Of a stretch of DNA of 40,852 nucleotides, positions 2,145 through 6,325 are shown in pieces. Location: IMG/VR virus record IMGVR_UViG_3300029908_000059, positions 1 to 40,852 of that record; one strand, written 5' to 3'. Position 1 is the stretch's first letter. Each line of letters starts with the position of its first letter. Both the position numbers and the translations under genes were made by a program. The stretch is from a virus. The notes under the pieces were generated by a model. The model was not told where the DNA came from. It did not search any database and saw nothing but the letters and a program-made list of their open reading frames with translations.

Positions 2145-2183
2145 CAAAAAAAATGGCCTGTTCATTGGGAAAAACAGGCCATT
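2145..2183 (-). terminator. Rho-independent terminator after the tRNA
   Basis: A perfect 11-bp inverted repeat, AATGGCCTGTT (2152-2162) and AACAGGCCATT (2173-2183), with a 10-nt loop. Read on the minus strand it is followed by a run of T (A-run at 2145-2153 on the plus strand). It ends transcription from the MuF gene and tRNA before the DUF2213-like gene. Confidence 0.85.
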
Positions 2184-2203
2184 AAAAACAATGGAGGGCA
2201 ATG

Positions 2204-2277
2204 TGGTTGCGCAGAAAGGAATTGCACCCTTGTCTCTAGGTTATGAGCCTAGCGTGAAACTGCTTCACTACCGCGCA
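2204..2277 (-). tRNA. tRNA-Met (anticodon CAT)
   Basis: A complete 74-nt cloverleaf can be folded by eye on the minus strand: acceptor TGCGCGG/CTGCGCA (one G-T pair), D stem GTGA/TCAC, anticodon stem CTAGG/CCTAG with loop CTCATAA, four-base variable loop AGAC, T stem AAGGG/CCTTT with loop TGCAATT, then A and an encoded CCA. The CAT anticodon can mean elongator Met, initiator Met or lysidine-modified Ile2. The D loop (AGCAGTT) lacks the usual GG pair. The tRNA sits just downstream of the intein-bearing MuF gene. Confidence 0.88.
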
Positions 2278-2289
2278 GCATTTTACATA

Positions 2290-4128
2290 TCACCGAATGA
2301 CTGGAATTGCAACACACCTACAGTTTGACACAATGGCACTTGTTGCTGTATAGTATCCAATATCAACTTGGAGATTATAAATATGGCCAATATAAAGAGC
2401 GCTTCTAACGCTAATAACTCTATCAAGCGTGGTGGCCATAACAGATTGCAATTCGATGTGAAACCCATCATCGATGCTTATATCTCTGGTGAAAGTGAAC
2501 TTTCCATCTCTAAGCGTACCGGCCTTGAACGTGTTGTTATCCGCCGAAGGCTTATTGAAAATGGTGTTGCCATCAGAAGCATTTCTGAGGCTAACAAAAT
2601 TAGAATGAGTAAGCTTACCTTTGAAGAAAGATGCAAACTTACTGAGGCGTCGCACAAAGGATGCAAAGCTATACCAAAATCCAAAAGAACAAAGATGCTC
2701 GAAAAATCTGCTAATGCACATTGCAAAAAAATCGGAGAGGGAGAGCAAGAGGTTATTGATGCTATTTCTTTGCTTAATATCCCCATAAAATCCCAAGTTG
2801 CGTGTGGCGTCTATAATATCGATATTACGTGTGGAACCGTCGCCGTGGAAATCTACAAGATGCCCCGCAGCAGTGTTGAAAAGAAAAGATTCCCGCAAAG
2901 ATTTAAATATCTCTCGGATAGAGGTTTCACCCTGATTTGCGTCTGTTTCACTAGAATTGAGCAACTCTTGGGGAATCTTAATGATGTAGTCAGACTCATT
3001 GATTTTACTTATAGGCTTCCAACCACTGACCGTAAGCATAGGATGATTAGGTGTGGCTCTAATCGTTTCTCCCGATTCAAGAATGATCTGGGTCAATTCT
3101 CCGCAATACCAGCGGCGGAAACATTTTTCTATTCTACCGAAAATATTAATCCGTGAGTTACCGGGAAAACAATTCCAATCCTCACCCGGATTATTTCGCG
3201 CACCTGTTTTCTGATCTGTTATAGGTGGGTTATCCCATCTAAACACTTTACCATTAAGCTTGCGATGATCAGGACGCTCACGCGCATCATTAGCTCCGCT
3301 CCACCTATATTCCTCAATGCCCATATCCTTGTAACGACTCTCTTGAAACTTAGACATAAGTAATGCTGTTTCTTGCCGAGCGAGGAATTTAGCCTTGCGT
3401 TGCGATACACCATAGTTTTCCGAAATCATTTTTACTAAGCTCTGCGCACGACCACCATCTAAAATATGCGTTTGAATGGACTGTCTTAAGCTCAATATAT
3501 TGTCCTGCGACCATTTCTTAATGTATAAATCAAGGTTATCGCTCCACTCCTCAGCTATTTTCTCTTTCATTGCATCGGTCAATTGCGCCTCAATTACTAG
3601 TTTTGAACGCGCCGTGGCGGGTGCATCAGTGGGATTTGTTTCACCCTTTGGTATGGTTTTCTGTAAATCACTCTCCATAGATGAAAGGGTTTTTTCATAA
3701 GACCTCGTAGTTTGTGAAATCAAATCAACATTATCAATATCAACATTATCTAGTGTATTCAATAGCTTATCGCACAATCTATTGTAACGCGCATCCGCCG
3801 TTGCCTGCGCAAACTTCACATCTGAGGGTACATGGCTTTGCTCTAATCTCCATGTGCGCGTGCTTTTTTTAAACGTCGCGCCGATGCGCATAAGCTCTTT
3901 AGTTATCTTGGCACTGTATTGACCATAGAACTCACCATTTTGATACCACACATTGCCCATAGCAATAGCATCGAGCAACGCATTCGCGCTGTTTTTGAAC
4001 TCTTTCATGCGCGTGCCTAGCGATTCAAATACAGGCTGATAAATAAGACGGTCAAATATGCGCTGAATTTCTTTTTCAATTTCGCTATAGTAATGCTCTT
4101 TGACTATAAGGGGAGGGAGTTGGAGCAT
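2290..4128 (-). CDS. MuF-like phage head morphogenesis protein interrupted by an intein
   Basis: 612-residue precursor. Residues 1-319 and 603-612 form the MuF/SPP1 gp7-like minor head protein, seen in RKAKFLARQETALLMSKFQE, RPDHRKLNGKVFRWD and the family's C-terminal motif NPGEDWN + CRCVAIPV. Residues Cys320-Asn602 are an intein inserted between the N and C of that motif. Splicing would give a 329-residue protein of normal family size. I chose ATG 4128 because AGGGGG lies 8 nt upstream; a GTG at 4137 is less likely. It overlaps the preceding small Cys-rich gene and follows the portal gene, the usual site. The head-assembly role comes from the family; splicing is predicted, not shown. Confidence 0.85.
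   Translation of the reverse strand: MLQLPPLIVKEHYYSEIEKEIQRIFDRLIYQPVFESLGTRMKEFKNSANALLDAIAMGNVWYQNGEFYGQYSAKITKELMRIGATFKKSTRTWRLEQSHVPSDVKFAQATADARYNRLCDKLLNTLDNVDIDNVDLISQTTRSYEKTLSSMESDLQKTIPKGETNPTDAPATARSKLVIEAQLTDAMKEKIAEEWSDNLDLYIKKWSQDNILSLRQSIQTHILDGGRAQSLVKMISENYGVSQRKAKFLARQETALLMSKFQESRYKDMGIEEYRWSGANDARERPDHRKLNGKVFRWDNPPITDQKTGARNNPGEDWNCFPGNSRINIFGRIEKCFRRWYCGELTQIILESGETIRATPNHPMLTVSGWKPISKINESDYIIKIPQELLNSSETDANQGETSIREIFKSLRESFLFNTAAGHLVDFHGDGSTRNIDIIDATRNLGFYGDIKQRNSINNLLLSLSDFFAMCISRFFEHLCSFGFWYSFASFVRRLSKFASFFKGKLTHSNFVSLRNASDGNTIFNKPSADNNTFKAGTLRDGKFTFTRDISIDDGFHIELQSVMATTLDRVISVRSALYIGHIYNLQVDIGYYTATSAIVSNCRCVAIPVIR
2325..2354 (+). promoter_or_regulatory. Sigma70-like promoter for the antisense endonuclease ORF
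   Basis: TTGACA (2325-2330), 18-nt spacer, TATAGT (2349-2354). It lies 28 nt upstream of the ATG at 2383 and is wholly inside intein coding DNA. The -35 hexamer lies over the last codons of the intein (Val-Ser-Asn), exactly at the C-terminal splice junction. Confidence 0.6.
2383..3156 (+). CDS. Putative Vsr/EDxHD-type homing endonuclease, antisense inside the intein
   Basis: 257 residues from ATG 2383. GGAG (2370-2373) lies 9 nt upstream; a TTG at 2368 in the same frame is less likely. Residues about 20-65 form a resolvase-like helix-turn-helix (SELSISKRTGLERVVIRRRL, then NGVAIRS). Residues about 118-205 look like a PD-(D/E)XK/Vsr-like nuclease core: an acidic GEGEQEVI, GVYNIDI with Asp147, VAVEI with Glu156, then a basic RFPQRFKYLSDRGFTLI segment. 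This is the arrangement of free-standing Vsr-like (EDxHD) phage homing endonucleases. The His of that motif is not obvious. The whole ORF lies within intein DNA, in codon register with it. Expression and activity are inferred. Confidence 0.72.
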   Translation: MANIKSASNANNSIKRGGHNRLQFDVKPIIDAYISGESELSISKRTGLERVVIRRRLIENGVAIRSISEANKIRMSKLTFEERCKLTEASHKGCKAIPKSKRTKMLEKSANAHCKKIGEGEQEVIDAISLLNIPIKSQVACGVYNIDITCGTVAVEIYKMPRSSVEKKRFPQRFKYLSDRGFTLICVCFTRIEQLLGNLNDVVRLIDFTYRLPTTDRKHRMIRCGSNRFSRFKNDLGQFSAIPAAETFFYSTENINP

Positions 4129-4268
4129 GGCATGCACCCCCTTTCGGTCAATATAACAAAGTAGCTTTTATAAAATTCGCGCTTAATACCGTCATAGCAA
4201 TCTTGGCAAGTGCTATAAGGATCAATTAATTTCTTCTTTTCTTCCTCGCAACATGCACACTTCATCAT
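4104..4268 (-). CDS. Small Cys-rich protein between portal and MuF genes
   Basis: 54 residues beginning MMKCACCEEEKKK, with Cys pairs (CACC and CQDC) spaced like a small zinc-binding knuckle, and further Cys near the end. Its ATG overlaps the portal stop (ATGA), which suggests translational coupling, and its 3' end overlaps the MuF start by 25 nt. The tight fit in the operon supports a real gene. No function recognised. Confidence 0.6.
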   Translation of the reverse strand: MMKCACCEEEKKKLIDPYSTCQDCYDGIKREFYKSYFVILTERGCMPCSNSLPL

Positions 4269-5680: not shown

Positions 5681-6325
5681 TTACCGTTTCTTTGGCGTTT
5701 TTAACGCTTCCATAATATCCCAGCCCAATCGAAGTCTATCATAAACTAGGGATGGTTTTATACCATAAATTTCTGCCGCCTCAGAAATAGCCATATTCTT
5801 TCCATCAATTTCGACAAGAGTAACTCCACGTTTATTTCTATTTTGCTCCTTCGCCGTAGCCCATCGACAGTTTCCTGGCTCATAATTTCCATCGTTGTTT
5901 GGCCATCTATCTATGCTATGATTTCTTGATGGTCTTTTGCCCATATCTTCAAAAAAGTTTTCAAAAGACAACCACCTTTTGCATACAGCTATATTTCTCC
6001 CACCATAAAGATAATAGTTAGGCGCATTGGGATTTAAACATCTCTGCTTCATGGAATTCCACGTTATATAAGTAGGAGTGCTTAACATTGAATGCTTTGT
6101 TACCGCATCCTTCTGGGCGCACCCACAGCTAGTGGTTTTTCCTCTTCTTATACTACTTGCTCTTGTAATAATTACATTTCCACAGACGCATTTACATTCC
6201 CATAAACTGTTACACTTACCATCATTCCCAGCATAATTAATAACAGTAAGAAGGCCATATACATGCCCGATTCTATTTACAAAGGTTTTTACAAGAGGAA
6301 TTTTATGCATAATCCCCCATACCAT
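5681..6325 (-). CDS. HNH-type free-standing homing endonuclease
   Basis: 214 residues. A Cys-rich knuckle (WECKCVCGN at about residue 43, SCGCAQKD about 66) is followed by the HNH-like core (HSIDRWPNNDGNYEPGNCRW, about 135-155) and KEQNRNKR. The C-terminus has a NUMOD-like DNA-binding segment (MAISEAAEIYGIKPSLVYDR). Such proteins nick or cut intron-less or intein-less alleles and spread between phages. It is inserted between large terminase and portal, and its stop lies 3 nt before the portal start. ATG 6325 or ATG 6310 could start it. It is co-oriented with the structural genes, unlike the antisense endonuclease at 2383. Confidence 0.82.
   Translation of the reverse strand: MVWGIMHKIPLVKTFVNRIGHVYGLLTVINYAGNDGKCNSLWECKCVCGNVIITRASSIRRGKTTSCGCAQKDAVTKHSMLSTPTYITWNSMKQRCLNPNAPNYYLYGGRNIAVCKRWLSFENFFEDMGKRPSRNHSIDRWPNNDGNYEPGNCRWATAKEQNRNKRGVTLVEIDGKNMAISEAAEIYGIKPSLVYDRLRLGWDIMEALKTPKKR

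Follow-up and report, generated by a model that had tools for sequence, protein, structure and literature searches.

An intein with a predicted Vsr-like homing endonuclease gene on its opposite strand in a phage minor head protein gene

A minor head protein gene in the window (the whole stretch of DNA analysed here, a virus record of 40,852 bp) appears to contain a mobile intein that has its homing endonuclease gene on the other strand, overlapping the splicing domain in a locked codon register. We put the probability of this reading at a little under four in five, with expression, splicing, cleavage and homing as predicted steps. Beyond the window, there is good reason to think that such doubly coded inteins form a widespread, unnamed class of mobile elements, in which a splicing domain and a Vsr-like homing nuclease lie in locked register on opposite strands and the expression signals of the nuclease (start codon, ribosome-binding site, promoter) fall in the block F and C-terminal junction motifs of the intein. 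The features of the window on which the analysis is based are the following.

2152 to 2183, minus strand: terminator-like stem-loop with a T run, 3' of the MuF and tRNA genes
2204 to 2277, minus strand: tRNA-Met, directly behind the MuF gene
2290 to 4137, minus strand: MuF/SPP1 gp7-type minor head protein gene, exteins plus intein (PF04233, E 2.8e-17; TIGR01641, E 7.3e-21)
2323 to 3171, minus strand: intein of 283 aa, from Cys1 (3169-3171) to Asn283 (2323-2325) (PF14890, E 3.6e-9; PDB intein matches)
2325 to 2330, plus strand: candidate -35 element TTGACA, covering the whole Ser codon TCA together with two bases of Val GTG and one of Asn AAC
2349 to 2354, plus strand: candidate -10 element TATAGT after a spacer of 18 bp (11/12 consensus matches together with the -35)
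2368 to 2373, plus strand: Shine-Dalgarno-like TTGGAG, 9 nt before the ATG at 2383 (from the sequence and the enrichment of such motifs in the family)
2371 to 2388, minus strand: intein block F, G-H-I-Y-N-L, opposite part of the Shine-Dalgarno motif and the nuclease ATG
2383 to 3156, plus strand: antisense nuclease gene, 257 aa, in codon-register antisense to 91% of the intein
2443 to 2574, plus strand: N-terminal helix-turn-helix (HTH) region, residues ~21-64 (AF2 helices; VIA-align)
2731 to 3018, plus strand: Vsr/I-Bth0305I-like nuclease domain, residues ~117-212 (structure, profile and invariant residues)
2836 to 2856, both strands: mirror motif, nuclease T-V-A-V-E-I-Y (plus) against intein V-D-F-H-G-D-G (minus)
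3043 to 3054, minus strand: intein block B, T-P-N-H, opposite nuclease M-I-R-C

The intein and the predicted product of its opposite strand

The MuF gene and its intein are read as a single unbroken frame (4137 to 2290, minus strand), and the insertion point of the intein is a conserved N|CRC motif. The landmarks of the intein are CFPGNS, TPNH, GHIYNL and SAIVSN in this order, the last being followed by the extein residues CRC. The splicing signature is complete (C1, block B T40-P-N-H43 and N283|C), and C1, T40, H43 and N283 are invariant across the inteins of 40 relatives. In the AF2 model of the intein, residues 1-70 and 244-283 reach a pLDDT of 90-98, residues 163-239 remain below 50, and Foldseek matches to the RadA, DnaB and RecA inteins indicate that the HINT fold is present. 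The tRNA-Met gene and a strong terminator-like hairpin (2152-2277, minus strand) begin about 12 bp past the MuF stop codon. The same head gene cluster also contains another homing-type nuclease, unrelated to the first: a free-standing gene for an HNH endonuclease at 5681-6325 (minus strand; phrog_374, E 6e-68), between the terminase and portal genes.

The product of the antisense ORF at 2383-3156 is, according to its model, an HTH plus Vsr-fold nuclease similar to the homing endonuclease I-Bth0305I. Its AF2 model (mean pLDDT 84) was aligned by VIA to E. coli Vsr (1cw0; Z 11.7 over 113 residues, 2.5 A) and to I-Bth0305I (3r3p; Z 10.6 over 94 residues), the latter being the Foldseek top match. 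Residues 20-64 of the model align to HTH proteins in VIA-align, and HTH Pfam families were found in 10 of 15 nuclease relatives. A profile built from these 15 relatives retrieved 3r3p (E 4.5e-6) and 3hrl (E 3.4e-5) as well as HTH proteins. The window nuclease alone gave no Pfam, NCBIfam or convincing PDB match; among these sequence searches its kinship with Vsr emerged only with the profile. Across 44 sequences, six positions never vary: E121, Y144, N145, D147, E156 and R173. In a tentative comparison with the EDxHD signature, the window copy has E..D..E but no counterpart of the W-H that follows E156 in many relatives; as this His is missing, the catalytic competence of the window copy is uncertain.

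Distribution of the family and selection on the two strands

A tblastn search with the antisense ORF matched 122 phage records. Among the matches listed, nearly all fall in genes whose annotation is minor head protein or hypothetical; where the record was fetched, the nuclease match lies on the strand opposite the head gene. About 100 more loci came from three scans of viral contigs and a scan of genome contigs, the latter with only 3 loci, and a plasmid scan yielded one record, a phage minor head protein. No part of A1 was sufficiently conserved to scan the collections with, and subgroups were used instead. Searches by phmmer with C-terminal intein pieces were uninformative. The reciprocal search with the sense intein gave 123 records, and all four further records fetched from it also carry an antisense nuclease-like ORF; they include inteins at a different MuF site (L138), in a VG15-type protein (L140) and in a dCMP deaminase (L141). 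In E. coli phage KMB36 (L138, 802-2772), the intein with its antisense nuclease lies before CRARDG and the usual MuF site is empty. The deaminase (PF00383) with an intein and antisense nuclease inside it (L141, 1126-2478) is annotated as a head morphogenesis protein, probably because of the intein. Two inteins of the doubly coded class lie in long portal-type proteins (L092, 1745-4750; L103, 2384-5680), and the L103 ORF combines a portal match with a weak MuF match.

About 120 relatives were examined, mostly in phage MuF-type genes and a few in other genes, and in all but one locus the nuclease lies opposite an open frame with an intein, the two being in exact codon register. The locus that departs from this is in Acinetobacter phage IME285, in which the same nuclease is annotated and free-standing behind an intein-less MuF gene. 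In this phage (L017, 413-2055), the nuclease gene is convergent with the MuF gene and overlaps its end, an arrangement that is possibly a loss or a pre-invasion state. The overlapping nuclease genes are absent from nearly all phage annotations inspected, including those of Aaphi23, MSW-3 and the Salmonella Jerseyviruses. Some records do identify the intein itself, among them that of phage Snoke and those of the UPWr_S phages (PMC8425127).

Antisense stop codons were counted in 376 of 16114 codons in the exteins versus 59 of 11535 in the inteins, where the stop of the nuclease itself accounts for about one per locus. Under extein codon usage, an antisense frame open as in the window has a probability of 10^-6.9. 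Between related pairs, the substitutions at sense codon positions 1, 2 and 3 are distributed as.27/.20/.53 in exteins and as.48/.16/.35 in inteins, so that the variable position in the inteins is the third position of the nuclease codons. The models contrast in the same region, as the antisense product is confidently modelled whereas the sense product opposite it is of low confidence. The strands also mirror each other: the invariant sense motif FHGD lies opposite the nuclease motif VAVE, and DFHGDG, seemingly an intein motif, is the shadow of the nuclease active site. Read from sequence comparison, the substitution pattern, the avoidance of stops and the mirrored motifs show selection on the nuclease strand, and selection is shown to act on both frames. 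The original prediction of an antisense endonuclease ORF is borne out in that fold, stop avoidance and substitution pattern agree on a nuclease gene under selection.

Promoter-like and Shine-Dalgarno sequences at the splice junction

As proposed from the window sequence, the hexamer TTGACA at 2325-2330 overlies the Val-Ser-Asn codons of the C-terminal splice junction, which the coordinates confirm. Of the 33 promoter-like sites that a scan of the first 12 kb gave, the window promoter ranks first; this number is no excess over shuffled sequences (34.6), so the scan alone proves nothing and was replaced by a synonymous-resampling null. Given the residues V-S-N, the probability of TTGACA is 0.03, and the whole promoter score of the window has p=0.032 under this null. 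For the window alone, the evidence for a promoter is thus merely suggestive, and it is the relatives that make it convincing.

In 61 representative loci, the best sigma-70 site upstream of the nuclease was compared with synonymous resampling of the sense codons. The score exceeded the null at p<0.05 in 24/61 loci and at p<0.01 in 17/61, versus 1/120 at p<0.05 among control antisense windows inside exteins (Mann-Whitney p=9e-19, with the reservation that the representatives share ancestry and pooled p-values overstate independence). A promoter at the C-terminal splice junction, as originally predicted, therefore recurs across the family. Sigma-70 hexamers spaced by 16-18 bp, upstream of the gene and above chance, are found in the window and, by enrichment, in the family. 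The remaining 37/61 loci have no promoter above the null at p<0.05; other promoters may serve in some hosts, or the nuclease may rely on read-through there.

Three promoter registers recur at the junction. Register I, found in the window, in Vibrio PvVp04 and in a number of the loci L041-L052, has TTGACA or TCGACA beginning 2 nt within the intein, with a hexamer resembling TATAAT after a further 18 bp. In register II, TGnTATAAT or a close variant overlies the two codons that precede the last three, often Ile-Ile; any -35 lies in the extein, and the inteins mostly end in His-Asn. In register III, TTGACA is shifted by 2-3 nt and the residue before Asn is Ser (AGY), Lys or His. Exact TTGACA occurs in 7/17 members of the clade of the window, with 0.34 expected from the residues, and TATAAT at +9 in 9/20 register II loci (1.67 expected). 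Shine-Dalgarno motifs of at least 4 nt were found in 41/61 loci (10.4 expected). The nuclease ATG lies opposite block F in 50/61 loci, and the block F Leu is encoded by CTC, which is GAG on the other strand, in 42/55 (12.5 expected). The candidate promoter and ribosome-binding site of the nuclease are thus apparently written into codons needed for splicing, and transcription from this promoter would be expected.

Since conservation on one strand appears on the other when the frames are in codon-register antisense, the antisense frame might simply reflect conservation of the intein protein, and the promoter, with its p of only 0.032 in the window, might be there by chance. This is highly improbable, given that the substitution pattern is reversed relative to the exteins, that stops are avoided, that a confident Vsr fold stands opposite a low-confidence sense model, that Shine-Dalgarno motifs and promoters are enriched with clean controls, and that a free-standing copy of the nuclease exists in IME285; a chance antisense ORF is rejected on the stop counts, the substitution pattern and the enrichment of both signals. 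The original prediction had further suggested a trade-off, in which the Ser before the terminal Asn would be the price of the promoter, His being the usual residue but destroying TTGACA; on this reading His would splice better. Indeed, with a His codon at this position the hexamer would read TGTGCA or TATGCA, and the TTGACA register at +2 was found only with Ser. However, the window groups in the nuclease tree with 16 others (support 99/95) that all end in Ser-Asn, and among these 17/17 Ser members 8/17 use AGC or AGT and have neither TTGACA nor TCGACA, so that Ser is a property of the clade, independent of the promoter. Several other subgroups also end in Ser, TTGACA in the shifted register occurs alongside Lys (L094) and alongside AGY-encoded Ser (L056, L071), and inteins ending with Ser, Lys, Arg or His before Asn all carry the antisense nuclease when junction residue and -35 are compared across relatives. 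Ser before Asn is also ordinary in a well-studied intein, as Npu DnaE ends in IASN and, to our knowledge, has no such antisense nuclease. A trade-off of this kind is accordingly very unlikely, and as the cause of the Ser it was rejected on the clade codons and Npu DnaE. What look tuned are the synonymous codons (GTG TCA) and not the amino acid, the promoter apparently exploiting a Ser that was already there.

Mobility, related systems and significance

MuF proteins that otherwise differ greatly have their inteins at one N|CRC-type motif. In close pairs, the inteins differ far less than their exteins (1.7% vs 23% for L022/L061, 1.2% vs 12% for L014/L031), although double coding, and not recent transfer, could be part of the reason for the low divergence. 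A natural pair of empty and filled sites is provided by KMB36 and Snoke (L138/L139), both phages of E. coli. No repeats were found within the element region. In one relative (L102, 2321-3199), the nuclease has one premature in-frame stop, absent from the related L112, whereas the intein frame is open; this nuclease copy is apparently decaying. The claim that promoter and gene home as a unit fits the window, where the promoter lies wholly within the intein, its -35 beginning 2 nt from the edge, so that homing would carry both together; in register II, any -35 would fall in the extein.

The mobile intein with an antisense homing endonuclease would work as follows. On the minus strand, the intein would be translated with the MuF head gene and splice itself out. 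On the plus strand, transcription would start from the sigma-70-type promoter with its -35 over the last intein codons, and the nuclease would be translated from the Shine-Dalgarno motif and the ATG that mirror intein block F. The HTH plus Vsr-fold nuclease would then cut intein-free MuF genes at N|CRC, and repair of the cut copies would bring in intein, nuclease and promoter together. With a promoter of its own, the nuclease could be made independently of both late-gene expression and splicing. The plus-strand transcript, complementary to the MuF mRNA over ~800 nt, might instead act mainly as an antisense RNA that restrains the late MuF gene early in infection; this is very unlikely as its main role and could at most be an added effect, as it leaves the selection at the protein level, the conservation of the Shine-Dalgarno motif and the nuclease fold unexplained. 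Phage homing nucleases can disadvantage intron-less rivals, and an expressed nuclease could act against competing phages instead of spreading the intein, but we consider this very unlikely, since the insertion point at N|CRC is constant across widely differing MuF proteins and the inteins are more alike than the exteins, both of which fit homing.

Inteins with nested nucleases are textbook knowledge. Canonical bifunctional inteins (nested LAGLIDADG or HNH) resemble the present ones in blocks A, B, F and G, in the nuclease slot between B and F and in the conserved insertion site, whereas the nuclease described here is Vsr-like, overlaps the splicing blocks as well and is encoded on the opposite strand as a separate product, presumably expressed from its own promoter and Shine-Dalgarno motif. 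The fractured genes in phage, reportedly described by Dassa et al. in 2009, are said to consist of split inteins with a free-standing Vsr-like nuclease gene that brings its control elements along. They are alike in being phage loci with an intein and a Vsr-related homing nuclease, but there the host gene and intein are reportedly split around the nuclease gene, whereas here the intein is unbroken with the nuclease antisense within it; the MuF ORF (4137 to 2290) is not split into two ORFs around the nuclease. The nuclease I-TevI likewise has its own promoter inside the element but, unlike the present one, is in the sense orientation and without protein overlap with its host. It is an intron homing nuclease with a late promoter (PMC3943268). 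The EDxHD homing endonuclease I-Bth0305I, treated among the group I intron enzymes (PMC3943268), shares the nuclease fold, the profile similarity and multi-domain DNA binding, whereas the gene described here lies antisense inside an intein, encodes an N-terminal HTH and, in the window copy, lacks part of the signature. In the Didymium iridis rDNA group I introns S956-1 and S956-2, the homing endonuclease genes are in opposite orientations (PMC13182076; Johansen 2006 cited there). A reverse-oriented homing endonuclease gene in a mobile self-splicing element, with antisense expression, is thus shared, but the Didymium element is a eukaryotic RNA intron whose strands are not both protein-coding in register, as they are here. 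No description of antisense, overlapping intein nucleases was found in the open literature, most subscription papers lying outside the search. With caution as to the closed literature, an antisense nuclease inside an intein therefore appears to be new, the fractured genes and the reverse-oriented Didymium gene being the nearest precedents.

The doubly coded inteins would represent a second arrangement of intein and nuclease, with expression signals embedded in the catalytic splicing motifs, unlike those of the textbook nested nucleases. The timing of the nuclease would be uncoupled from the late host gene, while its reading frame is tied to a capsid gene. As the frames are locked, a frameshift in the nuclease would also break the host protein, and the overlap would thereby shield a selfish gene from one main route of decay. 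The family would also provide a natural system in which one stretch of DNA satisfies two proteins, a promoter and a ribosome-binding site.
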